Made by a program: the position numbers and the translations under genes. Below are positions 2,178 through 64,000 of a stretch of DNA of 64,000 nucleotides, piece by piece. Source of the stretch: Polytrichum commune (taxonomy: Eukaryota > Streptophyta > Polytrichopsida > Polytrichales > Polytrichaceae); the NCBI GenBank assembly GCA_950295325.1, contig OX485806.1:32116001-32180000 (forward strand), read 5' to 3'. The stretch's first letter is position 1. The number at the start of each line of letters is the position of its first letter. Under the pieces are notes generated by a model that was not told the DNA's origin, ran no database searches, and saw only the letters and a program-made list of their open reading frames with translations.

Positions 2178-3760
2178 TAGTGTTCAAGATTGAAGCCCTC
2201 ATATGAGTTTCATTTTGAAGGGCTCTAAAATTTGAGCCCTTCGGTTGAAGGGCTAGTTCAAATTCAAGACGTCAATTCAGTAATATAGAAATAAAATATA
2301 AAAAAACTCATATTAAACTTATGCATGATTTATATGGTGCATGCTTCCAATACAATGTGAAGAATTAAGAATCAACCATCTAACTCCACCTCTTCTAGTG
2401 ATAATGCCCTACGCTTGTTGGTTCTTGTGCCAATTTTCCAAGATTCAAAAATACTATCCCAATCCATGAATTCAACTCCTAACCCATTTAGACTAACCCT
2501 CATTAAAGCATCTAGTGTGTCAAGGTTGAGTCTAGTTCTCCTTTCACTCTTAACCCAATTTTGCTTTGAAAAACCACGCTCACAAACAACAGTGCTAGTT
2601 GGGATCACAAGTATGGCTTGCCATAGCGACATCATAGTTGGCCAATTAATCATGAACTCCCGGTCATTGCCACAAAAAACCCAAGCTTCTTGCATACTTC
2701 GGCGTTCACAAACGGAACATAACATCTCCACGAATTCTAGCAATTCCGCATTGCATTGATTAACAAGGTCATCGCTCCAACGGAAATGTGTCACCAACCG
2801 GTTCAACCATTGTTCCGTTAATGTCCCTCTGTCCAATTCATCTACGGGATAGTGCTTCGGGCTAAAAAGCCGGGCCGCATTGAAAATGGACAAGTCAGGA
2901 AATCGATCATTGAGTGAATCGATGATCTTCTGCACATACTGCCTCCTCAACATGATGCATGCCTCCAATGAGCCTCCTACGTCACACTCGGGCATGGAAT
3001 CATAATGCAAGATATGCATTTTTTCACACCCAAAACTATCAACATACAATATTTGCCCATTGGGTACCACCTCGCGGAGAAACTTTCCTAGGTGTTTGGT
3101 TGTCAGGCCAAAACTTACACCCAGATAGTGTCTACGAAACAAGCTGATTGTTACATCAATCGTAGAAGCTATGCTAGTGATATCTACAAGATCAAACTGA
3201 AACTTGCGATTGACCTTATTCAACTCTGATAATATATCAGCTAGCATGTGAATGAAAAATTGGAACTGAAGAGAAGTTAGATCCTTGTACCATGTGGGTT
3301 CTTCAACCTCCCAAATTTCTAAAATTGCAGGCATACAAAATACCAATCTCTCCATGACCAAGCCACGGGATAACCATCTCACCGAATGGATCTGTAAAGC
3401 TGCACGGGATTTCAAATCAGCACTGATTTCACATTGATTGAATCACATCACACTACAACACTGACTCAATGCTTACCAAAGAAAGGGTTGGATTCCAATC
3501 TTTTGCAAGACCTAAAAAGTTGAATTCCAAGTCAGATCGATGTTGAATGAATCATTTGCTAGGTGTTGAGGTTGTCACTGTAGCGACCTCCTCGTCACTG
3601 TAGCGCTACAGTGTTGACGGGTGTAAAAATTTTGAGGACGTCAAGTGAAGTTTTCATTTTGAGTTTGGGGTTGCATTTTGAAGGGTTGTTTTGAGAGAGG
3701 TATATTTTGAAGGGCCAAATCGCGTTTGAAGGGCATTGAAGACTTCAATCTTGAACACTG
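2178..3760 (-). mobile_element. hAT-superfamily transposon, internally deleted, complete ends
   Basis: The terminal inverted repeats are TAGTGTTCAAGATTGAAG at the left and the complement of CAGTGTTCAAGATTGAAG at the right (17 of 18 matching). Perfect 8-bp target duplications CTCTAGGC flank the element at 2170-2177 and 3761-3768. The 8-bp duplication and T/CAGTG ends are hAT hallmarks. At 1583 bp it is about half the length of an autonomous hAT. It retains only the C-terminal part of a transposase on the minus strand, so it is a deletion derivative. Confidence 0.92.
2372..3355 (-). CDS. hAT transposase C-terminal fragment (dimerisation domain), open frame
   Basis: The minus-strand frame is open for 347 codons (2372-3415). 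The first ATG is at 3355, giving 327 aa. The N-terminal part (RWLSRG..ERLV) resembles the 'RWLSRG' segment of KIAA1586/ZNF862-type hAT transposases. The C-terminal part (WPTMMSLWQAILVIPTSTV, then CERGFSKQNWVKSERRTRL and LDTLDALMRVSLNG) is the hAT family dimerisation region, in which an S/T-x-x-x-E-R-x-F/G-S core is typical. The BED zinc finger and the N-terminal catalytic part are absent, because the element's end lies only about 345 bp upstream of the frame. It cannot be a complete transposase, yet no stop codon interrupts it. Confidence 0.75.
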   Translation of the reverse strand: MERLVFCMPAILEIWEVEEPTWYKDLTSLQFQFFIHMLADILSELNKVNRKFQFDLVDITSIASTIDVTISLFRRHYLGVSFGLTTKHLGKFLREVVPNGQILYVDSFGCEKMHILHYDSMPECDVGGSLEACIMLRRQYVQKIIDSLNDRFPDLSIFNAARLFSPKHYPVDELDRGTLTEQWLNRLVTHFRWSDDLVNQCNAELLEFVEMLCSVCERRSMQEAWVFCGNDREFMINWPTMMSLWQAILVIPTSTVVCERGFSKQNWVKSERRTRLNLDTLDALMRVSLNGLGVEFMDWDSIFESWKIGTRTNKRRALSLEEVELDG

Positions 3761-9351: not shown

Positions 9352-10220
9352 GGGCCACTTCACACACGAGACTAAGGCCCCATGACCATGGCACTTCAAC
9401 CACTCTCATTGGTGGAAAAGGCGGAGCTGGCCCAAGTTCGCTTCACACTACGCTTGAGGGACCAACAAATTCACTGAATGCAAGATGGATGTAATGACTA
9501 CATGAATCCCCGCATGGCATCAAATGGATCACGTTTCATGGCCACTTGGATTGTTTGCAAAAACCACCTCGGGGAAGTAGGCCTAACACAAAACCAGGAG
9601 ACCATGGCACTCCGAAACCTCACAACCGTTGATTTCTTATTATTTTATCATATGTGAAGACCCCATGTAAATAATCTCTACTTTATTGAAATAGCATTTG
9701 GTTAAAGACCTGGTCACAGATTACTTCACACTAAACTTGAGGACACGTGACCACACTAGGGCACCACGGGCCTTGGCTTGGTGGTTAGGGCTCATGGCCC
9801 CCAATGAGGAGGTTGTGGGTTCTATTCCCCATGCCGGCGTGGTGCTCACCACCTTAGTCCACCCAACTATGATGGGGGGTCCTTGGACCTTGTTGTATGG
9901 GTACCTCAAAGCCCTTTGGGGGGATACCATGTCCGGTATCTACAAGGCACTAGTGGCTAGCTAGGAACTAGTATAGTGTGTCACTATAGTGTCCATCCTC
10001 GAAAGGGGAGAGTAGTATTGTCCCAATTGTCCCCTTGTCCAGTGGGCATCGGGTCATTGGCATTACGAACGGACACTTTATTCACGCCGGCCCCTTGCTA
10101 AAAAGGGACCGGAGTTTCTATCTATCTGATTTTGGAAGTGTTTTGAGACGGCCTTTGGACACTTCTTCTGAGCTCACAATTTCATGATCACGGCTCTCTG
10201 GCTTCTGTCTGAAGCGGCCC
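9352..10220 (+). mobile_element. PIF/Harbinger-like MITE (GGGCCACTTC ends) disrupted by a SINE
   Basis: The ends are GGGCCACTTCACACACGAG at the left and the complement of GGGCCGCTTCAGACAG at the right. The interior aligns with intact ~500-bp copies at 49645-50144 and 58103-58601 (shared TCATTGGTGGAAAA, CGCTTGAGGGACCAAC, AGGAGACCATGGCACTCCG). The extra ~370 bp is the SINE at 9761-10128. The flanking trinucleotides are TTA and TTC, an imperfect match; the intact copies show TAA and TCA duplications. The 88-codon frame at 9698-9964 crosses the SINE and is not a gene. Confidence 0.8.
9761..10128 (+). mobile_element. tRNA-derived SINE, near full length
   Basis: An A-box-like TGGCTTGGTGGTTAGGG begins about 13 bp into the element. 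A B-box-like GGTTCTATTCC lies at about 9818, giving tRNA-type internal polymerase III promoter spacing. It ends in a short TCTA simple-repeat tail (TTTCTATCTATCTGA). A second copy of the same length lies on the minus strand at 32545-32910 with a clear target duplication. It interrupts the Harbinger-like MITE between GACCACACTA and GATTTTGG, which are adjacent in the intact copy at 49645-50144. Confidence 0.85.
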
Positions 10221-16027: not shown

Positions 16028-16613
16028 CAAGGGGGATTGGTGTGGGAATTTTAGGGCGGAGGGTTTGTTGGGGTGAGGGTTTGTGGCGGGGGGAACTCTG
16101 GCGGAGGTGAGGAATCAGGATGGTGGCGGACAGGGGGGGTTCTTGTGCGATCAGGGAGGGGTTTGGGTGTGTTGGGTGGTTTTGGTTGTGTTGTTGGGAG
16201 GAGGTGGTGTTGCGGGCAGGAGCAGGGGTTACTGGCTGAAGAAGCTGCTGCTGCTGCGGGGCAATCCAGCAGGCTTTTAGTTGTTGGAGATGTGGTGATG
16301 ATTGTCCGGGTGTTTTTTGGCGCGGTTTTGGATAGGGGAGCATTTTTCTTGAGGAGGGAGTTGAGGAGGCTGCCGCGGAGGAGTCGGGTTTGGGGTGCGG
16401 GTTATGTGTGATTGGGAGGATGAGGATGATGAGGATGATGATGATGTGTGGTGAGGGGCATGAGGGCGTGGGAGGTGTGCGGGAGTAGCATTCTTGTGCA
16501 TGTGAGCGGAGGGGTTGAGAATGTAGGTTTAGGTTTATGATGTGGTAGGACTATGGGGTGACTCGTGAGAACCATTCTTGTGGAGGTGCTGCGAATGTGG
16601 CCTGTGGCGAGGT

Positions 16614-19600
16614 ATGGCGACGGATGTAGTGGACAGTGGAGGATCAGACGCAATGCTGTTGCTTGAGCAGCAGCAGCAGCAGGACCCCCCGAGTGTGGTC
16701 GTGCCAATGGAAAAGGCTCCGGTTGATGATGGAGGAGGAGGAGATGTGGCAGTATCGGAATCCCAGCAAGACGGGATGGTGGTGGTGGTGGAGAAAAGCG
16801 ACCCGAAACCACCTGTCAATGATAGCTTCCCAATTGTGTACAAGAGGAGGTACACCAAGGGAGGGGAAGCCTGTAGTACTGATCCGAAGACTCCCCGCCC
16901 CCCATCATCATCATCAATTTTGCCCAACGAGTGCAAGTCTGCGGACCAAGCGGGTTTAGGGAAGAATCGGGTTATGTTCCAGAGGAAAGGTTCATCAGCA
17001 GTGGGAGCGGGAGGAGCTGTGCAGAAGCAGTCCACATTGGAGCAGTTCTGGAAACAGCCCCAGGGGACGACGAAGCCCACCCTGAATGGAACTCTTGCTG
17101 ATGATAACAACAATGTTGTCGAGAAAGCAGTGCAATGTGCGGTGGTGGTGCTAGAAACCGACAACTGCATTGCCAATCCGGCCATTACAGAGTCTCCAAG
17201 CAAGCGGAAGCGTGTGGAACAAACCTTACCTGTGGTGGAGCAATCCCTATGCCTGCCGGTGGAGCCATCCCGGGATGTGGAGGGACAATCCTTGCATGTG
17301 GAAGAAGATGGTGGCGCAGAATTGGAATGTGTGGGAGCCAATGCAAATGAGAAGCAGCAGGGAAAGAAAACCAGGGGGGTGTGCAAAGGGGACCAAAATC
17401 AAAATGCAGAACAGGTTTCTGAGGCTCCTCCAGCTGGGGATGCTGTCATTAGCAAGAAGAGAAAAGTGGGCCGGCCACGAAAAGACGAGGCAGTAAAAAG
17501 GAGTGAGAATGTGGAGAAGAAGGTTCGCCCAGCCAAGAGACCAAAGCTGGTTTTAGGTGCGGATTGCAAACTAGAAGTAGAGGAAGGGCTTAAAGGGGTA
17601 ACTAGAGCTGGGCTTTCGATGGTGGCAGGGACAGAAATCTCCAAAGAACCGTCACAAGTGGAAATCAGGAAAATTGCAGGTGGGCATGTGGAGTCTCAAG
17701 AAAGGGGGGCGATACCTGCAGGTCCATCTATTCAGGACGCTTCAAGCTCTGAAACTCAGACAGATGATGATCTGCCAGAAAGAATCGGGCGTAGACAAAT
17801 TAGACAGCAGCAGCAGCAAAATTCGAGCGAGGCGACGAAAAGTGAGACTGCCACAGAGACAGACCCAGACTTGCCATGTATGGGAGGAGATAAATGGGCT
17901 AAGCAGCGACGCGTGGAAGAGGATGATGAGGAGACTGATGATGGTGACCGGATACCGATTGACCTAAATGTGCTTCCAGAGTTGTTAATGAATTCAAAGC
18001 CGCAGAGGAAAAAACGTGCAGAGGGGGTACAAAGAAATGGAATTCAGAAACCTAAAAGACCTGCACTCAAGCGTGTTGAAATACATCAGCAGCTGCAGCC
18101 GTTAAACCAGAGCAGGAAAGCAGTGCAGCCGACCAACCAGATTGTAAAATCTTTGTGGCCAATTCGGCGCAATTCAGATTCTCATGTTGCACGCATAGAA
18201 GAAAAGGCTGTTGACCCAATCACATCAAATTCTGGACGGTTTGTATCTCTGAAGCATTTGCGCAGTCCGGTGGCGCCCAGCCAGCAGAGCACAGTCTGTA
18301 ATGGTGGAGAAGAGGCGAGATTAAGGGCATCATCACAGAGAATCTCTGATCCAGCTTCCATGGTTCGCAGAATCAAGATTGTACAGCCCAAGATGCCCCG
18401 AGTGTCTCCAGGTAAAACATCGCAAATTTCTAGGTTAACAAACTTGGAACCATCAATGCCAGTCCTTCTGCAAAGCATAGGGGTGGATGGAAGTGTGGAG
18501 AAGGTAACCCCTTCATCATCTGAAGAAACAGAGAGTGATGTAGAGCAGACGAATGGGCGTTCTAAGGGTATGGCAAGCCGTCGCTTGTTGATGCCAGGGA
18601 CACAATCTGTGGGAGGCTTGACAAATGGAAATTCTTCAAAGAATAAGGTCTGTGGAGTACTCCACTTGAAAAGGCCTGGCACGACAGGCAGTGTAATTGA
18701 CCTGAACCGGTCAGGCTGTCCTCCTCTTTCTAGCAGGGCGATTCGTGATAATATGTATCCTGGTTCACCAGGAAAGGTGCAAGATAACAACAATGCGTCT
18801 CAACAACAGTGGCAAGGAACTCCAAAGGCTCAGGATCAGGGAAGGAAGGGTTTAAGGGCGCTTGACACATCAGAGGATTCAGAGACGGAGAGTGACACAA
18901 ACGTCTCTGAAATACCAAGGCATGGGGTGAAGCGGGTCTTCCACTCCACACAGCTGCAGAAACCACCACATGGAGGTGTTATTGAGCAGAATGGTCACAG
19001 AGGAAAGGGTTCAGGCGTTCTGAAAGCTAGGGTAGCTGGAAGTGCAGAGGGTTTGAAAGATACCAAATCTCCTAGTAATTCTCCACTATCTGACTATGTC
19101 AAGAGTGTGGCAAGCATCCCAAAGAAGTCTACTGAACCAGGGCTTCATGTTAAACACTCTGAAAGCAGTGCACCAACAACAAAGAAGCATCCACGAGGAG
19201 CAATTCTGTCCACGATGTCTCGAGGTACCAGATTTATGAGGGCTCCTCATGCAAGGATGGCCATTGCAGTTCAGAAGAAGAAGGAGACTACCAGATTCTC
19301 TTCGTCTGCTCTGGAGAAGAATAAGAAAGCAAAGAAGACTGGGAAATTTGGTGTTCATGCATCAAAGGGTGCTATCCTCATAGAGGAGGAGCATGAATCA
19401 ATTAATGGTACCAAGGACATCCCGAAAGCAGTTTTAGAATCTTCAAATGCAGGTCTGCACACCCCACTTCTAAGGAGCCCAGTACCAAAAGAAAAGAGTC
19501 ACCATGAATCAATCTCTGTTGCGACTCCTGAAGCAGGCATGGATGTCAAACAAAGAACAAAGTTGTCCGGTGGGAAGTCACCTGGTGAGAATGGTGATAT

Positions 19601-22427
19601 GGGCGAGGTTAATGGGGCCATTTCTGCATTTAAAATGACTCCACGAACAAGGAAATTGACCGACGCTATGCAAAAGTTTGTGACACAGAAGGCAAACCGA
19701 AGAATATGGAGGGAGATTGACCTAAGTGCTGTTCATCCTACAGCTTTGATAGGTCGAACTTGCAAAGTGTTCTGGCCTCTAGATGAAGAGTGGTACCCAG
19801 GAGTCATCCATGACTACAACCCACAAACCAAAAAGCATAGAATTGACTACCAAGATGATGAGATGGAGATGGTCTTTATTTCAAAGGAACGTGTTAAACT
19901 GAAACTTTCCCCTGAGGAGTGGGTAGATCTTGAGACGTCTACATGTGAGCAATCAAGGAAGCCAGATCCAGATGAGCTGGCTGCACTAGCAGCAGGAGTA
20001 GAAGATCATCAAGGCCAATTAGGTCATGGAGATCTTGTGTGGGCTAAAGTAAAGGGGTATCCAATGTGGCCAGCATTTGTTATGGATGAAGAACATGCAG
20101 AAGCCTGTGGCATGGAGCCTGCTAGAAAAGGTATGCTCCCACTTCAGTTTTTCGGGAGCTATGACTTTTGTAGGTTCAGTGCCAAGAAGGTGGTGGTCTT
20201 CTCCAAAGGACTGATAATGAAATTTCATAACAAGTGCAAGCGGGTGGTCTTTGAGCAAGGGCTGGAAGAAGTGGAGAGGTATTTGAAGGAATGCCAGCTT
20301 CCTGATAGCATGGTCCACCTCCTTGATGATTCTGTAGGAGATGGTGTCCATGGAGCAATTGAGAGACAGAGGCAGGAAATTGAAGAGAATTGGCCAGAAC
20401 CAGATGAGCAGGATTTCAGAGGTGAAGGTAAAAAGAGAACAGTTCGAAAGGGTGTGAAGCGTATTCTAACTTTTCCACTTCATTTAGGGGCTCTCACAAT
20501 TGTGAGCCTTGGAAAGGTTGTAAGAGACACTGAGCATTTTCACGACCAGCAGTACATTTGGCCAGAAGGCTACACAGCAGTTAGGAAGTTTACTTCAACA
20601 AGAGACCCTGACATATCTGTGGATTACAAGATGCAGGTATTGAGGAATCCATGTACACCGTCACTACCTATGTTTCGTGTTACTCCTGAAGATGAGCCTC
20701 CTATTGAGGGTCCCTCCCCATTTGCATGCTGGAAAAAGTTCTTTCAAAAACTGCGCAAGGCTCAAGAGAAATCTGGGAAGTCCTCAAGTCCTGATCTGGA
20801 CAAGCCAAAGCAGTTCAGATCTGCTGCACACATGTTTGGTTTCAGTAACCCTCGAGTCTCAAAGCTAATACAGGCACTCCCAAATGCGAGAGCATGCACA
20901 AAGTTCACCAACTGGACGGTCAAGCTTCCTGCTGAAGAGGTGGAACCTGTCCTCCCTGCAGGCTACAAACCTGTCAACATTGCATGGAAGCATTTGGATC
21001 GTTGCACTGTTTGTTACTTGGACGAAGAATATACTGACAATCTTTTGCTACAGTGTGACAAGTGCCGGATCATGGTACATATGAACTGTTATGGGGAGTT
21101 AGAGCTTCCCGATGGAGATTTATGGCTTTGTAACCTTTGTCGCAGTGAGGCCCCCAAATCTCGACCTCCTTGCTGCCTCTGCCCTGTTACAGGTGGGGTT
21201 CTGAAGAAGACTACAGATGGTCGCTGGGCTCATTTGATGTGTGCTATGTGGATTCCTGAAACATGTCTTGTAGATGTCAAGAGGATGGAGCCTGTGGATG
21301 GCATCAATGCTATCAGCAAAGAGCGCTGGAGACTTAATTGCAGTATTTGTAAAGTACCTTATGGTGCATGCATTCAATGTACCGTTAATAATTGCAGGGT
21401 AGCTTTTCATCCTCTGTGTGCTCGATCAGCTGGCCTCTGCATGGAGGTTCTAGAGGAGAAGCGGAAAGGTGATGGAGATACTGATTTGCGTTTGCTGGCA
21501 TACTGCCGAAAGCACAAGCAGCCAACTAGCAATACCTGTGAAGTTATCAACCCTCCACAAGAGGTGAAGACTGATTGCTTGTCTTACCAACCTCCCAAGA
21601 ACCCCTCTGGCTGTGCTCGAAGTGAACCCTATAATGCAGCAGCAAGAAGAGGGCGTCGAGAACCAGAGGCACTGGCTGCAGCTCTTGCCAAACGCCTGTT
21701 TGTTGAGAACCTACCACATAGAGTGACTGGTTGTCGGCAAAATCGTCCACCCAAAGAAATTGTCCCTAGAACTGGAGGAAGTTTATGGTCTTTACACTGG
21801 GAAGCCACTAAAGAAGGAGGACCCTCAGGGCCCACTACTCTTCAGACTACCAAATCTGGTGAAGTTTTATCAATGTCAGAGAAGTTCCGCAAAATGAGGT
21901 CTTCATTGAACCAGCGGCTTGTGTTTGGGAAATCAGCTATCCATGGGATGGGTGTGTTCACGAAGCAGTTTCATGATGCAAATGACATGATAATTGAATA
22001 CGCAGGTGAAGTCGTGAGACCCATCATTGCAGATATTCGGGAACGGAGGTGCTATGATTCCCTTGTTGGTGCAGGAACATACATGTTCCGCATTGATGAT
22101 GAGCGTGTTGTTGATGCAACTCATACTGGGAGTATTGCACATCTGATCAATCATTCTTGTGAACCAAATTGCTACTCAAGGACTGTGACTGCAAGTGGGG
22201 AGGATCGAATTATTATCTTTGCAAAGCGAGACATCCAAGTTGGAGAGGAACTGACTTATGATTACAGATTTATGTCGAGGGATGAGCTTCTCACCTGCTA
22301 TTGTGGGTGTACTGGCTGTCGAGGGTCAGTCAATGTATTTGATGGAGAAGGGGATCCTACCAAGCTATTTGTTCCTCTGTCTGAATTGGTCAAGCTGCCA
22401 GCTACAACCCGAGGACACACACATTAG
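16614..22427 (+). CDS. ATX1/ATX2-like trithorax histone H3K4 methyltransferase, intronless
   Basis: 1937 aa from ATG at 16614; the frame is open upstream to 16578 but only from a TTG. The context GAGGTATGG has G at -3 and +4. The family methylates lysine 4 of histone H3 and activates transcription in the nucleus. Domains in order: polyQ near residue 20-25; basic AT-hook-like KRKVGRPRK at about 281-290; DLNVLP at about 450-455; Tudor-like segment (RTCKVFWPLDEEWYPGVI) at about 1043-1098; PWWP (GDLVWAKVKGYPMWPAFV) at about 1137-1230; FYRN/FYRC at about 1291-1420; PHD (CTVC...CDKC) at 1463-1512; extended PHD at about 1517-1630; SET with INHSCEPNCYSR and ELTYDYRF at about 1767-1890; post-SET CYCGCTGCRG. 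All key SET and zinc residues look intact. Arabidopsis ATX1/ATX2 are about 1050-1080 aa and have many introns. Here the coding region has none, and about 850 extra N-terminal residues precede the conserved part. ATX1/2 subgroup assignment rests on FYRN/FYRC being present. Confidence 0.93.
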   Translation: MATDVVDSGGSDAMLLLEQQQQQDPPSVVVPMEKAPVDDGGGGDVAVSESQQDGMVVVVEKSDPKPPVNDSFPIVYKRRYTKGGEACSTDPKTPRPPSSSSILPNECKSADQAGLGKNRVMFQRKGSSAVGAGGAVQKQSTLEQFWKQPQGTTKPTLNGTLADDNNNVVEKAVQCAVVVLETDNCIANPAITESPSKRKRVEQTLPVVEQSLCLPVEPSRDVEGQSLHVEEDGGAELECVGANANEKQQGKKTRGVCKGDQNQNAEQVSEAPPAGDAVISKKRKVGRPRKDEAVKRSENVEKKVRPAKRPKLVLGADCKLEVEEGLKGVTRAGLSMVAGTEISKEPSQVEIRKIAGGHVESQERGAIPAGPSIQDASSSETQTDDDLPERIGRRQIRQQQQQNSSEATKSETATETDPDLPCMGGDKWAKQRRVEEDDEETDDGDRIPIDLNVLPELLMNSKPQRKKRAEGVQRNGIQKPKRPALKRVEIHQQLQPLNQSRKAVQPTNQIVKSLWPIRRNSDSHVARIEEKAVDPITSNSGRFVSLKHLRSPVAPSQQSTVCNGGEEARLRASSQRISDPASMVRRIKIVQPKMPRVSPGKTSQISRLTNLEPSMPVLLQSIGVDGSVEKVTPSSSEETESDVEQTNGRSKGMASRRLLMPGTQSVGGLTNGNSSKNKVCGVLHLKRPGTTGSVIDLNRSGCPPLSSRAIRDNMYPGSPGKVQDNNNASQQQWQGTPKAQDQGRKGLRALDTSEDSETESDTNVSEIPRHGVKRVFHSTQLQKPPHGGVIEQNGHRGKGSGVLKARVAGSAEGLKDTKSPSNSPLSDYVKSVASIPKKSTEPGLHVKHSESSAPTTKKHPRGAILSTMSRGTRFMRAPHARMAIAVQKKKETTRFSSSALEKNKKAKKTGKFGVHASKGAILIEEEHESINGTKDIPKAVLESSNAGLHTPLLRSPVPKEKSHHESISVATPEAGMDVKQRTKLSGGKSPGENGDMGEVNGAISAFKMTPRTRKLTDAMQKFVTQKANRRIWREIDLSAVHPTALIGRTCKVFWPLDEEWYPGVIHDYNPQTKKHRIDYQDDEMEMVFISKERVKLKLSPEEWVDLETSTCEQSRKPDPDELAALAAGVEDHQGQLGHGDLVWAKVKGYPMWPAFVMDEEHAEACGMEPARKGMLPLQFFGSYDFCRFSAKKVVVFSKGLIMKFHNKCKRVVFEQGLEEVERYLKECQLPDSMVHLLDDSVGDGVHGAIERQRQEIEENWPEPDEQDFRGEGKKRTVRKGVKRILTFPLHLGALTIVSLGKVVRDTEHFHDQQYIWPEGYTAVRKFTSTRDPDISVDYKMQVLRNPCTPSLPMFRVTPEDEPPIEGPSPFACWKKFFQKLRKAQEKSGKSSSPDLDKPKQFRSAAHMFGFSNPRVSKLIQALPNARACTKFTNWTVKLPAEEVEPVLPAGYKPVNIAWKHLDRCTVCYLDEEYTDNLLLQCDKCRIMVHMNCYGELELPDGDLWLCNLCRSEAPKSRPPCCLCPVTGGVLKKTTDGRWAHLMCAMWIPETCLVDVKRMEPVDGINAISKERWRLNCSICKVPYGACIQCTVNNCRVAFHPLCARSAGLCMEVLEEKRKGDGDTDLRLLAYCRKHKQPTSNTCEVINPPQEVKTDCLSYQPPKNPSGCARSEPYNAAARRGRREPEALAAALAKRLFVENLPHRVTGCRQNRPPKEIVPRTGGSLWSLHWEATKEGGPSGPTTLQTTKSGEVLSMSEKFRKMRSSLNQRLVFGKSAIHGMGVFTKQFHDANDMIIEYAGEVVRPIIADIRERRCYDSLVGAGTYMFRIDDERVVDATHTGSIAHLINHSCEPNCYSRTVTASGEDRIIIFAKRDIQVGEELTYDYRFMSRDELLTCYCGCTGCRGSVNVFDGEGDPTKLFVPLSELVKLPATTRGHTH

Positions 22428-32544: not shown

Positions 32545-32910
32545 AATAGATAGAAACTCTGGTCCCTTTTTAGCAAGGGGCCGGCGTGAATAAAGTGTCC
32601 GTTCGTAATGCCAATGAACCCGATGCCCACCGGACAAGGGGATATTGGGACAATACTACTCTCCCCTTTCGAGGACGGGCACTATAGTGACATACTATAC
32701 TAGTTCCTAGCTAGCCACTAGTGCCTTGAAGATACCGGACATGATATCCTCCCAAAGGGCTTTGAGGTACCCATACAACAAGGTCCAAGGACCCCCCACC
32801 ATAGTTGGGTGGACTAAGGTGGTGAGCACCACGCCAGCATGGGGAATCGAACCCACAACCTCCTCATTGGGGGCCATGAGCCCTAACCACCAAGCCAAGG
32901 CCCGTGGTGC
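32545..32910 (-). mobile_element. tRNA-derived SINE, full length, 13-bp target duplication
   Basis: The minus-strand copy of the family at 9761-10128 has an A-box-like TGGCTTGGTGGTTAGGG and a B-box GGTTCGATTCC that matches the polymerase III consensus exactly. It ends in TTTCTATCTATT. It is flanked by perfect 13-bp duplications (plus-strand CTCAACCAGTTCA at 32532-32544 and 32911-32923). The intact boxes and target duplication mark a recent insertion. The opposite-strand frames at 32707-32965 are shadows of it. Confidence 0.93.
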
Positions 32911-33322
32911 CTCAACCAGTTCATCTATTGTAACGAAATGCCAGTTCTCCCCGACCGGTGCCTAAAAGTGCTCGGGAATGAGGGGTGGATGGGAGTCCAA
33001 CCCGACCATTTCTAGTAGGAAAAACGCAAGGGTTGAAGGGTGAAATAGTCTTCTTCAAGTCCCGTTTTGATCTGTATGTTCTGTTAAGTTCTTAAACAAA
33101 CACTAGTAGAAGAAATGTTGTCTAATACAACCATATGTTTCAACTTGTCCAATGCATGGAGCACACGGCGAGTTGCATACTATATATAGAGATTAAGTTG
33201 TTTTGGTTGGCAACCGGAGGTTTTGGGTTGTCTTTTGTTCCAAGATCGCAGCTCCAGACCTCCGGGTGACAACCATAGCTTTATTTCTATGCATTTTGTC
33301 ATCATGAATTGGATTGGACAAG

Positions 33323-35322: not shown

Positions 35323-38300
35323 ATGAATTCCATAATTGAGTACTTTGGAGCGAATCCAGTTAGTCAAGAGAAACCGAAGGCAATTGAACGAACGCCATCA
35401 GGCACAAAGAAGTGGGTGAAGGAGCTATCTCCTTTGGCCAACAATGTCGTTGGTCGATGTGCAAGGTTTGAATTCTTATTTCTTCTAAAGAATTTCTTGA
35501 TTTTAGCGAAACCGGAGGCAATCGTTATTGCAAGGATTGACGTTAGAGTTTTTTTTTCAAGGCAGCTTTGCAAGTAGTTGTTTCTGGTGTTGACAATTGC
35601 ATGAAATAGGATCTAATTGATCTGCCAACACTAAGTTGTTTGTCTTCAAATGTGCAATGCTGGACACACTAAGGAATCTGGACTTGGTATGGCAGGGTAC
35701 TGTTGGTCCGGCCCGAGGATTTACAGGAGCAATTTGAGAAAGAGGCACCAGCTTCCGCAAAGGAAGCAGATAAATATGCCCGCAATCTATTGGAATACTG
35801 CTGTTTCCGGGCTCTTTCAGTTTCAGCTCAAACTGAAGATCATCTCAATGACAAAGAGTTCCGGCGTTTGTCGTATGACATGATGCTGGCCTGGGAGGCT
35901 CCAGGGCCGACACATAAGAATAAGCCAAAGGTGATCATTTGAATTCTAGGGAAAAAGGTCAGAAATACGTGAAACATGTTTGATCTTGATCCTGTTCATC
36001 CTCGCAAAAAGGTTATTCGCTCTTGAACTTCTAAGTGATTATGTGAAATAGGTGGAAGAGAAGGATGATAAGCTAAAAGAAGCAGAGCATGTTGCAGCAG
36101 CTTTGGGCGCTGACGAAGATGATGAGGATTCATCGCTTTTCTATAATGACCTAATGCCAATGATGGTTCGTAATCCATTTGTTTTTTGCTACATTATTCT
36201 TCTTTTTGAAGTCATGCTCGTGCTAGAAATCTGGACGATTCAAGTATGATCATAGGATTTTTGTGATAATGAAATTCATAGTTATCTTGATCGGTTGTAG
36301 ATTAGGTATCAATGTCTGTCAAATTACATACGCCTTCTAATCACTGGAAGGACAGATACTGGCTTTTATTCTCTGCAAACGTGGTATTCTCTTTTTCACT
36401 TATTAACAATACTGGAAGTTTTCTACAATTTGTTCTCAGAAAGACGTGCAGTGTAGCAGTAGATGATAAATCGTTCAATACCTTTTGCAGGCAGAGGTGG
36501 ATCAAACTGTAGTGTTGGGGGCATTTGCACGGCTGGCTCCTGCAATACCTATCCTTGCAGACATTATCACCGTACATCCTCAGTGGGAGGCTCTTACCAA
36601 TACCACTGGAGGTCGTCTGCCATTTCAGCTATATGACAAATACTTAACTGAGCTTGACAAGTAAGAGACCACATTCCGATTGACCTTCAGTAAATATGTA
36701 CAGGGACTATTGTACTGTAGTATCTCTTTGATCTTTATTTGTCTAGATTTGAAGTGTGACAAATTTCTATGACTTTGAATCAGGTCAATCAAAGTTGTCA
36801 AGGCCCAAATTACACCATCAATATCCAGTGCGCTTGGCCTTAAAGATAACGAAACTGTTATAGAATTGGATGGAACATCATCTGGACAGACTGTCCTTGA
36901 GCATGTGGGAACCTCTACTTGGCCTGGTGAGAAAAACTGTCTAGAAAACTGTATGACGTGGGCTTTGGATCTCTTTTTCAACTCTACTCTGAGGGATAAT
37001 TCCTTCATTGACTTTTTATCTCTTGGTCAAGAAGATGCAAACATTTGCAAGTCCTAAGATAACAAGCACAGACATGATTCATGGTCCTCAGATGTTACAG
37101 AAGAGTTGAATGATATTAGTATCATTTTCTCTACTCAGTCGGTGTAACTTAGAACTTGTGCTTCTGATGTAAACATCAGTTGAAGCACAAGGCAGGTGAA
37201 ATCAAGTGTGGAACGTAAAGGTTGTCCTGCTGTAATCTATCTCATCATTGTGCAAATTATGATGTTCTGTGTTGTCAAATTGCAAACAGGACGATTGACA
37301 CTGACCGATTACTCAATGTACTTCGAGAAAGCTGGAGTTCTGTCATATGGCGAAGCTAAGAAATTTGATCTAGCATCAGATTTAAAGCATGAGGTGAAGC
37401 CAGATTTGACAGGTCCTTGGGGTTCCCGTGTATTTGATAAAGCTATTATGTTCAAATCAAATGAAGAGTATGTTTTCCACATCCACCTCAACCCATGTTC
37501 TAGTCCAGCACATATTAACATGCTCTGATTGTAAAATCCACCAGATAAATGGGCTGATTTTAGATAGGTCCTCGTTTGACACCAATAGCTAATAACATCA
37601 AGAAGTAATCTGAAACCCCTCCGTATGACATTATGAGGCCAAGATCGGGCCTCTCAGACCTTTAAGGATTGAACTCATCAACCCTGCTATCTCAATGTAA
37701 AATAATTCAAAAAGTCCTGCATTCCCAGTTCCATCATTCTTACTGACAGAACTTCGGATTTGTTTTGTGAGTTGAGAACGTAATGATGTCTTTAAAGATT
37801 GATTGCATCTTGTCTTCTTATTCTTGCTAAAAACAGGTGTTTATCCTGTATATCCTTTTAATTATACTTTTGAAGACTACTCATAAAATCACGACCATAG
37901 CTTGATATCCTGTATTTTCACCTAAATTAAATTGGGTTTGATCAGTGCAAATGATAAGTTTTCTGTATTAGGTATCTTCTAGATCTGATGGGGAGTCCTG
38001 CTGGTTGCCTTGCAGGTTGGAACCATTAGTATTTGAGTTTCCAGAGATGACAGGGCATGCACGTCGTGACTATTGGCTTGCAATCATTCGGGAAGTCGTG
38101 GCAGTCCACAATTTTGCTCGTACATACAAGCTGGAAGGTTTGGGAAAATCTGAGGCCCTTGCAAGGGCTGTCTTAGGCATAGCAAGGTTACGAGCCATTC
38201 GAGAAACTTTCAAAGTGTTGCCACCTCGACCCGACTGCCTACTTACATACTCATATGGAGAGGTGATGCCTAGTGGGGACATGATCATGGCTGCTCTAGC

Positions 38301-41060
38301 TGATATTCTCCGTCATTCAGGACATGGCGAAGGAGGCGATACGTTTCTTGATCGTCATGAAGGGAACAAAATTTACGCAAGCTCTGCAACCGCGTCTGTA
38401 GCTAGCCTAGGTTCGGACTTCACTCCTCACCCAACTCCTGATCAAAAGCCCGATGCATCGGCTCCGATCAACAAAGTTATGATTGGTGAAATGACGACAT
38501 TGGAAAAGACTGTTATGGAGTCGCGTGATAACACAAAGAAGGTGGAGTCCGCGGAAGCGACTGTTGATGGTGTCAAAGTGGAAGGAATAGGGACAAATGT
38601 TGCTATTATGACGGTATGTCTTCTACTGCAATTGTCAACTTTGTGGTCATGAGCTCTTGGGCAAGTGTAGAGATTGGATCGATATGTAGATTACATCTGC
38701 TATCTTCTTTCCCTTTCCAGATGAGAGAAAATCAGTAACTTGGAAGGTGTATGCACTAAGGTATGTGGGGCTCATGTGGTCACTCTTTCTTAATTGGACA
38801 CCACTATGGCAAGGTTTATAGTTTAAAATGGACAGAAAACACGTATTTTGATGATATTGGACTATCTTTGATATAAGGTATGTAACTTTATTGTGGACAC
38901 TACTATGATCAATTGGCAATAGGTATGACTGTGGAGAGTCTGTAATCGTCCACATTTTGAGAAGAACCTTGGTTCTACTATTGAAGTGTCTTTGCTTAAC
39001 AACCTGTTAAAAGCATAGACATGTTAAATTTAGTTTCAGTTTGCAAAATAGTACCTTCTATGTAGATATGATGAACTACAAACTGTATGCGATTTTGTGC
39101 TAGAGCATTTGCTGTCGGAATATACATGTATATTGGAGATATTCCTGACAATCTTGCACCTTTATGTTACAGGAGCTTTTGAAGCCATTGAATGCAGCTC
39201 TCTCGTGGTTTGATTCGATTATCCGTTGGGACGATCCATTGAGAACAGTTGCAGTTGCAGCTGTAATTGCTCTGTTCATCTACATGTGAGTTCCAGCATT
39301 GATATTGAGTCTTGAGAAATTAGAGAGAGGTTCTTATTGGAGGAGTCAGTAGCAAGGTTATTGATCCATTCCATCACTTCTAGTCTCCTAGGTATGCTAC
39401 CCAGAGGACTACAAATGCATTGACCACAAGTGCTCAAGGTTCCTGTTGTGCGACAACACTAAATATCTGATTTAGTGTGGCACTTAAATTAGATATTATG
39501 GCACTAAACTAGTGTCATGTTCATTAGAGTGGTCTTCTAACTTAGCACCAAGTGTCATGTGGCACCCTCTCTAGGTGCTACCCAGTCATTGCAAAACAAT
39601 TAATGTGAGTTGATGATGAATAGTTTGGGCTCACAAAATCAGTGTCTAGTGTAGAGTGTTAATTAGGAACCTTGGAATTGAATGTTTAACCTAATGTGTT
39701 AACGTGTTTTTTATTTCCTGTACAGGGACTGGATATCATATGTTCCACCATTGCTGATGTTGTCAGTGTCACTTTACATCTTCTATTTACGGTACATGAA
39801 GAAACGGGAACAAATTGGTGTGGGTGAGATACTTGTTCCTACGCCCCCTGGCCAGAGTACAGTGGAGCAGTTGATGGCACTGCAGCAGGCTTTGTCTCAG
39901 CTAGAAGGCATTATTCAAGCAGGCAATATTATCCTGTTGAAGATTCGGGCGTTGCTACTATCATCCTATCCTGAGGTAACACTTCCACATGTCTTTGTAG
40001 TTCTGAAATTTTTGAAGCAAATGAGAGACCAATTTATACTTGGATATGGGCCTTCCAAGTGTAGTGTAAAGACATATGCGGCTGGGCTCTAAACCGAATA
40101 CTCTTTCATTACCATCCTCTTCATGTAGGCCCTTCCCACAATAGGTGATAGTAAATCCAATGGTTGTCAGTTATTGAAGTCACATCATAGTCTTCCAGTT
40201 TTGTTTTACACCCACCTCTTTGAGGTGGGCTTGACGCAATATCCGGTGGAACATGAATTATTTTCATGTGCATGTCATATAAAACTCTCTAGGTCTTTCA
40301 TCCATTCAAGTCTCCTGGGTCCCTTAGGTCCTCAAGCTTTACTGTAAAGTGAAGTGGGACAGTTTCAGCATTTTCCACCAATGAAAGATTTTTGGTTTCA
40401 ATGATCAAGAGCCATCAAGAATTGTCATCTCGTCCTTTCAACGTTATGGCTTCATTGGAGACATGGAACCAAAATGAACTTCTTTGACCTTATTCTTACA
40501 CGCACTACTAGTAGTCAGGCTCAAGCAATATGGTGTTAACTTAACATTCTTCAGTAGCGGCCTATTTAGGTTTCAATGCACATGAAATTAATTCCTAGGT
40601 GATCTGGAAAAATCTATGAATGATTCCATCGGAGACGCACCTCTTCAATTGAATCTTGGTAGATGGAGGAAGGCTGTGTCTGAAGGCAACAATAAGGTGT
40701 CTATCGATGAGAGCTTGCCACTTCACTATGCTCGGATTTCATGCATGTACTGAAGGTTCTTCATTCTTAAAGATTATTCTTGAAGCTAAAATTTTGTGCT
40801 TGCCTTCTTCTGTGCTGCAGGCATCAAACCAAGTGGCTGCATTATTCGCAGCTGGAGCGTTGGGTCTGGCATTTCTACCAACCCGGTGGATTGCCTTGAT
40901 TGTCTTTGTGAATCTCTTCACTGGCCAGATGAAGTCACGAAGAGACAGCTCGGCCACTTTCAACCGGCGATTCAACGAGTGGTGGTACAGCATACCTGTG
41001 GTACCTGTCCGATTCCTCAAACCTGAAGAAATAGAAAATGTTAACAAAACTGATCAGTAG
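35323..41060 (+). CDS. Plant DUF639 family membrane protein, 10 coding exons
   Basis: Exons placed by GT-AG sites and conserved frame: 35323-35465, 35696-35930, 36052-36165, 36491-36660, 36784-36926, 37290-37467, 38016-38613, 39173-39285, 39726-39975, 40821-41060. The joined length is 2184 nt, giving 727 aa, close to the usual ~700 aa of the family. Family landmarks: WVKELSPLANNVVGRCAR near residue 35; ARNLLEYCCFRALS and DKEFRRLSYDMMLAWEAP in exon 2; an acidic loop (GADEDDEDSSLFYNDLMP) in exon 3; TGGRLPFQLYDKYL in exon 4; GRLTLTDYSMYFE near 268, then GPWGSRVFDKAI and EFPEMTGHARRDYWLAIIRE, a stretch resembling a GRAM/PH-like fold; membrane segments near 553-588 and 655-681. Biochemical function is not established for the family. 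I chose the ATG at 35323 because an in-frame stop lies 21 nt upstream in the unspliced DNA and the upstream exons lack an ATG. Confidence 0.9.
38755..38950 (+). repeat. Dispersed repeat copy inside DUF639 intron 7
   Basis: It matches the family seen near 760, 4790, 5990, 41580 and 57720 (AAGGTATGTGGGGCTCATGTG, here split: AAGGTATGTGGG, then GTCACTC..CTTAATTGGACACC). The intron tolerates it without disrupting splice sites. A small ACTAAATATCTGATTTAGTG palindrome lies in intron 8 at about 39461. Confidence 0.5.
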
Positions 41061-61300: not shown

Positions 61301-63765
61301 ATGGGAAAACAACATCAGCGACACAGGGGCTTTTGGGTGGAGAAAGCGGGATGGTTGCTCCTGATGATGCTTGTCATGCTACAACATATACACATGGTGT
61401 CAACACAGGCACCAGACCCATCGGTGTTTCCTTCTGACAACACTCCCAACACAGATGGAATTCCTGCGTCTCCTCAAGAAGTGTTAGCTTTGTTGAGGAT
61501 CAAGCACACTCTCGTGGACCCCACCAACGCTCTTGCGAGTTGGAACGAGACTGGGGTAGGGGCGTGCAGTGGAACATGGATTGGGATCAAATGTGCACAA
61601 GGTCGCATCATCGCCATAGCCCTCCCTGCCAAAGGGTTAAGTGGCACTCTTGCAACCGACATAGGCCAGCTTGTAGGATTGCGCAAGCTGAATGTACACG
61701 ACAATGCCATCACCGGAGCATTGCCTTCAGCTCTTGCAACCATCAAAACTTTGAGAGGACTCGCTTTGTTCAACAACAAGTTCACCGGTTCGGTGCCTAC
61801 AGGGTTTGGGAGCTTACCCTTGTTGCAAGCTTTGGATGCAAGCAACAATGACCTCTCTGGTGTTCTTCCTGCTGACCTGGGGAATGCGCCTAATCTCACT
61901 CTTCTCAATCTGAGCAAAAATAACATATCCGGGTCGATGCCTTCTGGGTATGGTGGATTTCAAGGCACATACTTCAATTTGGCAAGTAACAATCTCTCAG
62001 GGGCTCTTCCGGACTCATGGACAGCGCCTAACCTGCAGCAGATGTATGTGAACAACAACGGTTTTTCAGGCTCTCTTCCGGGTAGCGTCGGGAAGGTGCT
62101 TACATTGCAAGTTCTGGATGTGGCACATAATGACATCTCCGGGACTATACCACCTTCATATGCAAACCTCACATCGCTCAACACTCTCCTGTTGAACCAG
62201 AACAACTTGTCTGGGCCATTCCCACCTGCTTTTACAGATTTGAAGCTCCTGAAGAGTTTAAATGTGAGTTACAATAACTTGAGTGGAGATGTGCCAGTTT
62301 TTGCCACCGCTTTCAATCTGAGCTCCTTCCAGCCTGGAAATACTGGGTTATGCGGATATGCTGGATTGTTGGCTTGCCCTCCTGCAGCGCCATCGCCATC
62401 GCCAGCACCTACAAGCGAAATAGCCCCTGCACATGCGAAAAAGGGGTTAACCACTTTGAGCATTGTTTTTATTGCTCTGGGGAGTGCGTTAGCTGCGATC
62501 CTGTTGGCTGTGATGTGTATAATCATCTTCTGCCGGTGCTGTAGAGGTGGGAAGGCAGCTGCTGGTACTGGAGGTAAACCTGAGAGGTCTCCGGAGAGGG
62601 AAGGCGATGTTGGGGGGAAGCTTGTGCATTTTGAAGGGCCTTTGCAATTCTCTGCGGATGACTTGTTGTGTGCAACCGCAGAAGTTTTGGGGAAATCCAC
62701 GTATGGTACAGTGTACAAGGCTACACTCGAGAATGGCAACCATATCGCTGTGAAACGTTTGAGGGAGGGTATTGTGAAGTCTCAGAAGGAGTTCACGAAA
62801 GAGGTTGATGTTCTTGGCAAGATCAGGCACCCTAATCTGTTGGCTCTCAGGGCCTACTACTGGGGTCCTAAAGATGAGAAGCTCCTAGTGTACGACTATA
62901 TGTCCGGTGGAAGCTTGGCTGCTTTTCTTCATGGTGAGTAAATCTAAGCTTGCTGCAAATTTCCATCCAGCAATCTGTTGTGGTTCGTGTTAAAGAATTG
63001 AACCCCTCCAACTCTTATTGTGATGTAGCTACCCCAGACAAAGTAGGTGATGATCTGGATAGAGCTTAAAGCTCTTTTCATTCCTTCCAATGAAGGTGCC
63101 CAGACATAGTAGTCGGTCCACTCTGCTATCTCACATAGTATTAGCGGAAGTAGTATAAGGGAAGATGTAATGGGTCGAGTGGGGTAATCTGAACGTCTGT
63201 AATATGAAAGTCGCCGATTCTCAGATATTGTGATGGGCCGGGCCAGGCAAAGCAGTTGATATTCTTTGTTTACTTTCAAAATGATCTTGGAGAAAGTGCC
63301 AAGGTATGCAAAGAGGGATACAGGAGGGTACTGTGCTCAAGGCAGTCGGTATGCTCTGCTTTTTCACATAGTAATCATAGAGAGAGCTTCAAGGGAAGAT
63401 GTAAAGTTCAAATTGTTATGTGCATGCAGCAAGAGGCCCGGAAACAGCTCTGGATTGGGGCACAAGGATGAGGATAGCGGAGGGAGCCGCTCGGGGCATC
63501 AACCGCCTCCACCAAAACGAGAACATCATTCACGGGAACCTCACTGCCTCCAACATCCTGCTCGATGCCAGGTCTTCGCCTGCACTCACTGCATGTATTT
63601 CCGATTTCGGCCTGTCAAGGCTTATGACCCCCGCCGCCAATGCCAATGTTGTTGCGACCGCGGGATCCCTCGGTTACCGCGCCCCAGAACTGACTAAGTT
63701 GAAGAAGGCCACCACCAAATCCGATGTTTACAGCTTCGGAATTGTCTTGCTTGAGCTCCTGACTG
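61301..63765 (+). CDS. IMK2/IMK3-like LRR receptor kinase, 5' part (exons 1 and 2)
   Basis: Exon 1 is 61301-62933 (ends CATG before GTGAGT) and exon 2 is 63430-63765 (after TGCATGCAG). The second intron starts GTATGT at 63766 and continues past the window, so the C-terminal kinase lobe is missing here. Order: hydrophobic signal segment ([10 protein letters not shown], residues 17-30); LRRNT region with a C-containing cap ([10 protein letters not shown]); about eight LRRs with LxGxLP repeats; a proline/serine-rich stalk; transmembrane helix near 382-412; juxtamembrane; [20 protein letters not shown]; glycine loop [12 protein letters not shown] near 461; lysine in IAVKRL near 481. Exon 2 gives the [16 protein letters not shown] catalytic-loop region, SDFGLSRLM and [18 protein letters not shown]. 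The HRD aspartate is N (HGN), as in this subfamily. In Arabidopsis the relatives act in meristem and growth signalling, and IMK3/MRLK was reported to phosphorylate AGL24. The ligand here is unknown. Confidence 0.92.
62934..63429 (+). other. Intron 1 of the IMK2/3-like gene
   Basis: GTGAGT donor and TGCATGCAG acceptor, 496 bp, phase 1; it splits the A codon of HARGPET. It contains a self-duplicated motif: TGCTATCTCACATAGTA (63123-63139) and TGCTTTTTCACATAGTA (63355-63371), each followed within 15 bp by GGGAAGATGTAA. It is non-coding. Confidence 0.9.
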
Positions 63766-64000
63766 GTATGTTTACACGGTCATTGCCTTCATCAGTTCAT
63801 GTTGTGAAAGAAATTCTCTGGTGGGTTCCTTATGGGCCTCAAAGTTTCCTGCTGAAATTCCGTGGAGGTTTCTCAATTGAGCTCAATTTTTTTACCTCAA
63901 GTACCTAGTATTTGTATGGATCTGAGTCCTCATCTTTGGTTTTTCTCTCTTCCCATCTCTTGCCATATTTTCATGTTCTGTAATTCTCCGGTCATTCTAA
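63766..64000 (+). other. Start of intron 2 of the IMK2/3-like gene
   Basis: It begins GTATGT after ELLTG, the usual intron position before the K-P-P segment of the kinase in this subfamily. No acceptor followed by the expected kinase sequence is found before the window ends. Confidence 0.75.

Follow-up and report, generated by a model that had tools for sequence, protein, structure and literature searches.

An uninterrupted ATX1/2-type H3K4 methyltransferase gene in a moss genome, apparently single-copy and possibly an old retrogene

The Arabidopsis genes ATX1 and ATX2 are split by many introns. The moss gene described here differs from them in being one uninterrupted frame, which raises the question of how a plant Trithorax gene came to this form and whether an intron-containing relative survives in the same genome.

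The reading frame and the class of its protein

On the plus strand of the 64-kb window (the whole stretch of DNA that was analysed), positions 16614-22427 form a single open frame of 1937 codons, with the ATG at 16614, the stop at 22425-22427, zero internal stops and a stop-to-stop extent of 16569-22427. In 200 first-order Markov sequences with the dinucleotide make-up of 16.0-23.0 kb, the longest frame had a mean of 168 codons and a maximum of 310. Together with the Pfam domains and PDB alignments given below, these simulations confirmed what the first-pass annotation had stated, namely that the frame is uninterrupted for 1937 codons and contiguous from the Tudor-like region to the post-SET. 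Rfam and tRNA searches of the 64-kb window gave no matches. The window also holds a hAT-family transposase remnant at 2372-3415 on the minus strand (Dimer_Tnp_hAT, E 8.7e-07), and two peptide-coding stretches (APRALAWWLGLMAPNEEVVGSIPHAGVV...) that closely resemble each other, at 9695-9964 (plus) and 32707-32961 (minus), and are probably copies of one repeat. The features of the gene are as follows.

16614..22427, plus strand: uninterrupted coding frame of an ATX1/2-type H3K4 methyltransferase, 1937 aa (open frame, Pfam domain order)
17028..17051, plus strand: candidate PIP (PCNA-interaction) box-like motif QSTLEQFW, aa 139-146 (pattern match)
17469..17480, plus strand: AT-hook core GRPR, aa 286-289, within a basic stretch (pattern match)
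17961..17978, plus strand: DLNxxP (EAR-type) motif DLNVLP, aa 450-455 (pattern match)
19740..19892, plus strand: Tudor-like domain, aa 1043-1093 (phmmer match to PDB 7de9_A, E 7.8e-10)
20028..20285, plus strand: PWWP, aa 1139-1224 (Pfam PF00855, E 1.5e-15, 57.9 bits against a cut-off of 25.6)
20469..20645, plus strand: FYRN, aa 1286-1344 (Pfam PF05964, E 1.4e-19, 69.8 bits against 24)
20667..20906, plus strand: FYRC, aa 1352-1431 (Pfam PF05965, E 3.5e-16, 59.6 bits against 21)
21003..21140, plus strand: PHD finger, aa 1464-1509 (PHD_2 at 1476-1509, E 1.5e-09, 37.6 bits against 28)
21168..21515, plus strand: extended PHD (zf-HC5HC2H_2), aa 1519-1634 (Pfam PF13832, E 9.1e-33, 113.2 bits against 27)
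21609..21629, plus strand: Win-like motif GCARSEP, aa 1666-1672, before SET (pattern match)
21945..22265, plus strand: SET, aa 1778-1884 (Pfam PF00856, E 3.9e-24; MLL1 alignment)
22296..22331, plus strand: post-SET cysteine cluster (aligned with the MLL1 post-SET)

The best PDB match of the SET and post-SET region was human MLL1 (155 residues, E 2.4e-43), and TYDYRF in the moss protein aligns to TYDYKF in MLL1, thus keeping the tyrosine which we take to be that of the Y/F switch. The general Pfam PHD model scored 21.9 bits at aa 1464-1509, just below its cut-off of 24. The structure matched by the Tudor-like domain, 7de9, is presumably that of Arabidopsis RDM15, whose Tudor domain is proposed to mediate recognition of H3K4me1.

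In its content the protein combines PWWP, FYRN/FYRC, a PHD and an extended PHD upstream of SET, an MLL/Trx-group SET/post-SET and the switch tyrosine. The signature of plant ATX1/2 is reported to be PWWP together with FYRN/FYRC, extended PHD and SET (PMC3457860), and the order PWWP, FYRN/FYRC, PHD, extended PHD, SET, post-SET is the same as in Arabidopsis ATX1/ATX2, of plant Trithorax class III-1 (PMC3457860, PMC3567966). Domain content and order therefore bear out the earlier assignment to an ATX-type H3K4 methyltransferase, and the ATX3/4/5 type (PWWP-PHD-ePHD-SET without FYR) was ruled out by the presence of both FYRN and FYRC. Human MLL1 (KMT2A) is alike in its related SET/post-SET and in the Win-like motif, whereas the combination of PWWP, FYR, extended PHD and SET marks the plant Trithorax family (PMC3457860). 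Both ATX subgroups are reported from Physcomitrella and Selaginella, with ATX1 duplicated in Physcomitrella (PMC3457860), and the proposal for the RDM15 Tudor domain is that of a review (PMC13361950).

A second difference from Arabidopsis ATX1/ATX2 lies in the approximately 1040 residues which precede the Tudor domain and which carry PIP-like, AT-hook and DLNxxP motifs. These, together with the Win-like motif before SET, are new details, read from pattern matches to the protein. A PIP box interacts with PCNA, an AT-hook has a GRPR core, DLNxxP is an EAR-type motif, and the Win motif serves for WDR5 binding in MLL proteins; GCARSEP accordingly suggests a predicted WDR5 docking site. The PIP-box-like pattern appeared in a fraction of 0.0018 of 20,000 shuffles of residues 1-1040, and the shuffle fractions were 0.0073 for DLNVLP and 0.0105 for the stricter, mostly five-residue patterns also fitted by the AT-hook site, all of which are optimistic, since the motifs were picked after the protein had been read and seven patterns were tried on it (one of them, LxLxL, with no match).

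Search for a parent gene and for introns elsewhere

The window corresponds to G000:C4:32116001-32180000. The assembly comprises 407.8 Mb in 64 contigs, and contigs 1-7, which sum to 406.1 Mb, were therefore taken as seven chromosomes. Seven is also the suggested ancestral chromosome number of mosses (PMC13120521). Contig 8 (G000:C8, 146,561 bases) carries psaA and psaB and seems to be the plastid genome. The best PDB matches of PsaA and PsaB are 8htu, 6l35, 7ksq and 7xqp, structures of photosystem I from Physcomitrium, and make a moss the likely host. Most moss plastid genomes have about 125 kb, and this longer sequence may hold a duplicated end or come from a moss lineage that diverged early.

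A search of the genome with the whole protein (E <= 1e-5, best 24 of 31 candidates scored) gave 16 matches, of which only that at the gene's own locus was full-length (100% identity). The other 15 covered at most 137 residues at 34-52% identity; all fell within the Tudor, PHD/extended-PHD or SET parts of the protein and outside PWWP and FYR. Because the scoring covered the best 24 of 31 candidates, a parent that had diverged strongly or broken into fragments may have escaped it. FYRN was found at three loci, the ATX1/2-type locus and two others (L028 and L029). Neither of these two has a genome SET match within 150 kb, and no PHD or SET was recognised by eye in the frames of 9.9 kb around each (Pfam was applied to two pieces of L028). 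Having FYR pieces only, they were ruled out as ATX paralogues, and we take them, by eye, to resemble TBRG1-like proteins. The intron-containing paralogue which the first-pass annotation had proposed to look for was thus not found in the same genome by the protein search (best 24 of 31 candidates) or the FYRN search. An extra copy beside an intact parent was rejected on the same grounds, and the ATX1/2-class gene is, from these searches, apparently single-copy. Six peptide patterns drawn from the last 919 residues of the protein brought up no relatives in IMG/VR.

Introns are present in the genes around it. Within the window, an LRR-kinase gene has its kinase domain divided between 61301-62938 and 63420-63905, and a DUF639 gene is split over 38005-38649 (34.4 bits, below the cut-off of 37.1), 39703-40089 and 40653-41057. 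Elsewhere in the genome, the SET match of a gene at C2:38.15 Mb is broken by a gap of 842 bases and contains one stop in its second part; a frame upstream of it scores 26.5 bits for extended PHD, just short of the cut-off of 27. Interruptions in both neighbours and in a further SET gene led us to reject wholesale intron loss as the reason for the uninterrupted frame; of the two explanations first offered, retrocopy or wholesale loss, only the former fits, and it would do so as a replacement. Long unbroken frames do occur elsewhere in the genome, namely two SET genes of 679 and 706 codons that look SUVH-like by eye, a frame of 1047 codons with a PHD and one of 866 codons. Plant SUVH genes are described as mostly intronless (PMC3063831, PMC6986063).

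Origin of the uninterrupted gene

Two histories would suit a sole, intact and uninterrupted gene in a genome with introns, namely an old retrogene replacement, or a loss of introns through cDNA that would be just as old. With confidence a little better than even, we hold that this is a working, apparently single-copy ATX1/2-class gene, and an old retrogene which replaced its intron-containing parent. The intact frame, its domains, the finding of no second ATX1/2 locus and the interrupted neighbouring genes are the basis of this reading, from which we infer introns in the ancestor and a route through retrotransposition. All coding introns would have been lost, most probably in a single step, when a spliced mRNA was reverse-transcribed; the intronless cDNA would then have been inserted into the genome; and the intron-containing parent would have been lost afterwards, which constitutes retrogene replacement. 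Because no intron-containing paralogue was found, a retrocopy would here be a replacement and not a spare copy.

Among the marks of a retrogene, the uninterrupted frame was found, while an intron-bearing parent in the same genome and a poly-A tract or target duplication were not. The missing parent is compatible with a retrogene, since its absence is expected under replacement. Scans of the locus found no poly-A tract and no target duplication, as had been noted from the sequence at first sight, and flanking repeats were near chance (five 11-mers against 4.2 expected, two 12-mers against 1.3 and one 13-mer against 0.33, this sole 13-mer being telomere-like). A recent processed copy, already doubted in the first-pass annotation, was rejected for want of both marks. 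The absence of any positive trace of retroposition also counts against the retrogene reading itself. Poly-A tracts and target-site duplications are normally lost in old retrocopies.

Two known cases are comparable. In amphioxus, a retrogene of SYCP1 replaced its multi-exon parent, so that a large multi-exon gene gave way to a copy with a single coding exon, as would be the case at our locus, although SYCP1 is an animal meiosis gene of approximately 3200 bp encoding an unrelated protein (PMC5803294). The intronless SUVH genes of plants, which are likewise SET-family methyltransferase genes without introns, have been ascribed to retroposition, but they encode an H3K9-type pre-SET/SET, and their intron-bearing V-2 group survives (PMC3063831). 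Unlike these, the ATX1/2 gene described here has no intron-bearing relative found in its genome.

An alternative which we regard as possible, though unlikely, is that the intronless state is old and common to mosses, or even ancestral, the gene being ordinary for its lineage and odd only beside angiosperm ATX1/2. The host is a moss, the absence of a poly-A tract and target duplication would be expected of an old state, and other long frames, such as those of 1047 codons (with a PHD) and 866 codons, occur in the genome; the reading nevertheless overlaps with retrogene replacement, which fixes no date. Literature searches on moss ATX and intronless trithorax genes yielded nothing on the exon structure of moss ATX genes. 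More doubtful is the removal of introns in place at the ancestral locus, either singly or through recombination with cDNA. A single copy without marks of retroposition is equally expected from it, yet a single cDNA event is the simpler account of why no intron is left anywhere in the coding sequence, and conversion in place by cDNA is distinguishable from retroposition only by synteny.

With regard to splicing, five strong donor patterns (7-9 bases) occur 11 times on the plus strand of the whole window and not once in the frame. A looser donor matrix gave 11 donor-like sites in the frame (for example 18412, 20131, 20279 and 20428), a pyrimidine-rich acceptor rule gave one site (20487), and a short poly-pyrimidine acceptor pattern gave four further places (near 17425, 18722, 20298 and 20950). 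Pairing 20428 with 20487 would remove a 60-base intron and delete the start of FYRN, which we consider implausible. The frame is read as unspliced because its conserved domains are contiguous, and that stretches of it are spliced out as in-frame introns after all is, despite these donor-like and weak acceptor-like places, very improbable in a frame with no strong donor pattern and with domains that are contiguous without splicing.

A sole copy in one frame would be an example of a core chromatin regulator that shed its coding introns and remained in use. Moreover, a one-frame ATX1/2 gene offers a simple target for gene replacement in a haploid plant.

Predicted function and H3K4 methylation

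Expression, enzyme activity and product are predictions. The protein would act like Arabidopsis ATX1/2, its Tudor, PWWP, PHD and extended PHD reading chromatin, its Win-like motif docking WDR5 in a COMPASS-like complex, and its SET methylating H3K4, chiefly to the mono-methyl state, a product predicted because the tyrosine of the Y/F switch is kept. In Arabidopsis, ATX1/2 enzymes help to set H3K4me1, this mark is reduced in atx1/2/r7 triple mutants, and the SET domains of ATX1, ATX2 and ATXR7 carry the bulky switch tyrosine (PMC9372134). Against a mono-methyl product, earlier locus-level work gave H3K4me3 for ATX1 and H3K4me2 for ATX2 (cited in PMC9372134, PMC13361950, PMC6986063).

A speculative extension, to which we attach little credence, is that the PIP-like motif at aa 139-146 binds PCNA, and that an H3K4 mono-methyltransferase behind replication forks would restore H3K4me1 on new histones. 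Such a clamp-bound writer is considered because of a PIP and Tudor pairing in a MSH6-like protein and because of a link between H3K4me1 and MSH6. In fact, L020, a frame which lies at C6:4.505 Mb and by eye is MSH6-like, has a PIP-box match, QRSIQSFF, near its start and a PTM/DIR17-type Tudor match of 23.9 bits, below the cut-off of 27.2; it thus resembles the ATX1/2 protein in pairing a PIP-like motif with a Tudor, the latter under the cut-off in L020. H3K4me1 is said to recruit MSH6 via a Tudor domain (PMC13361950). If the clamp-bound reading were true, the writer and the repair reader of H3K4me1 would meet on one clamp, and a functional PIP-like motif would bring replication-coupled H3K4me1 within reach of testing.

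SET domains also occur in this genome in a different setting. The element formed by L007 and L043 (G000:C6:26956882-26965800) is a CACTA-type DNA transposon (Transposase_21, E 2.9e-68, with DUF4218 and DUF4216) with an open frame of its own, about 200 aa long, that encodes a SET domain (E 1e-11). L007 and L008 (G000:C3:47715089-47718430), on different contigs, share 90.7% identity over 2115 bases, the SET frame included. Of the 119 genome SET matches, about 87 (counted by hand) have the same near-full-length form of 342-351 bases, the L007 and L008 copies being those examined. A CACTA-type element with a possible histone methyltransferase would be worth a study of its own.
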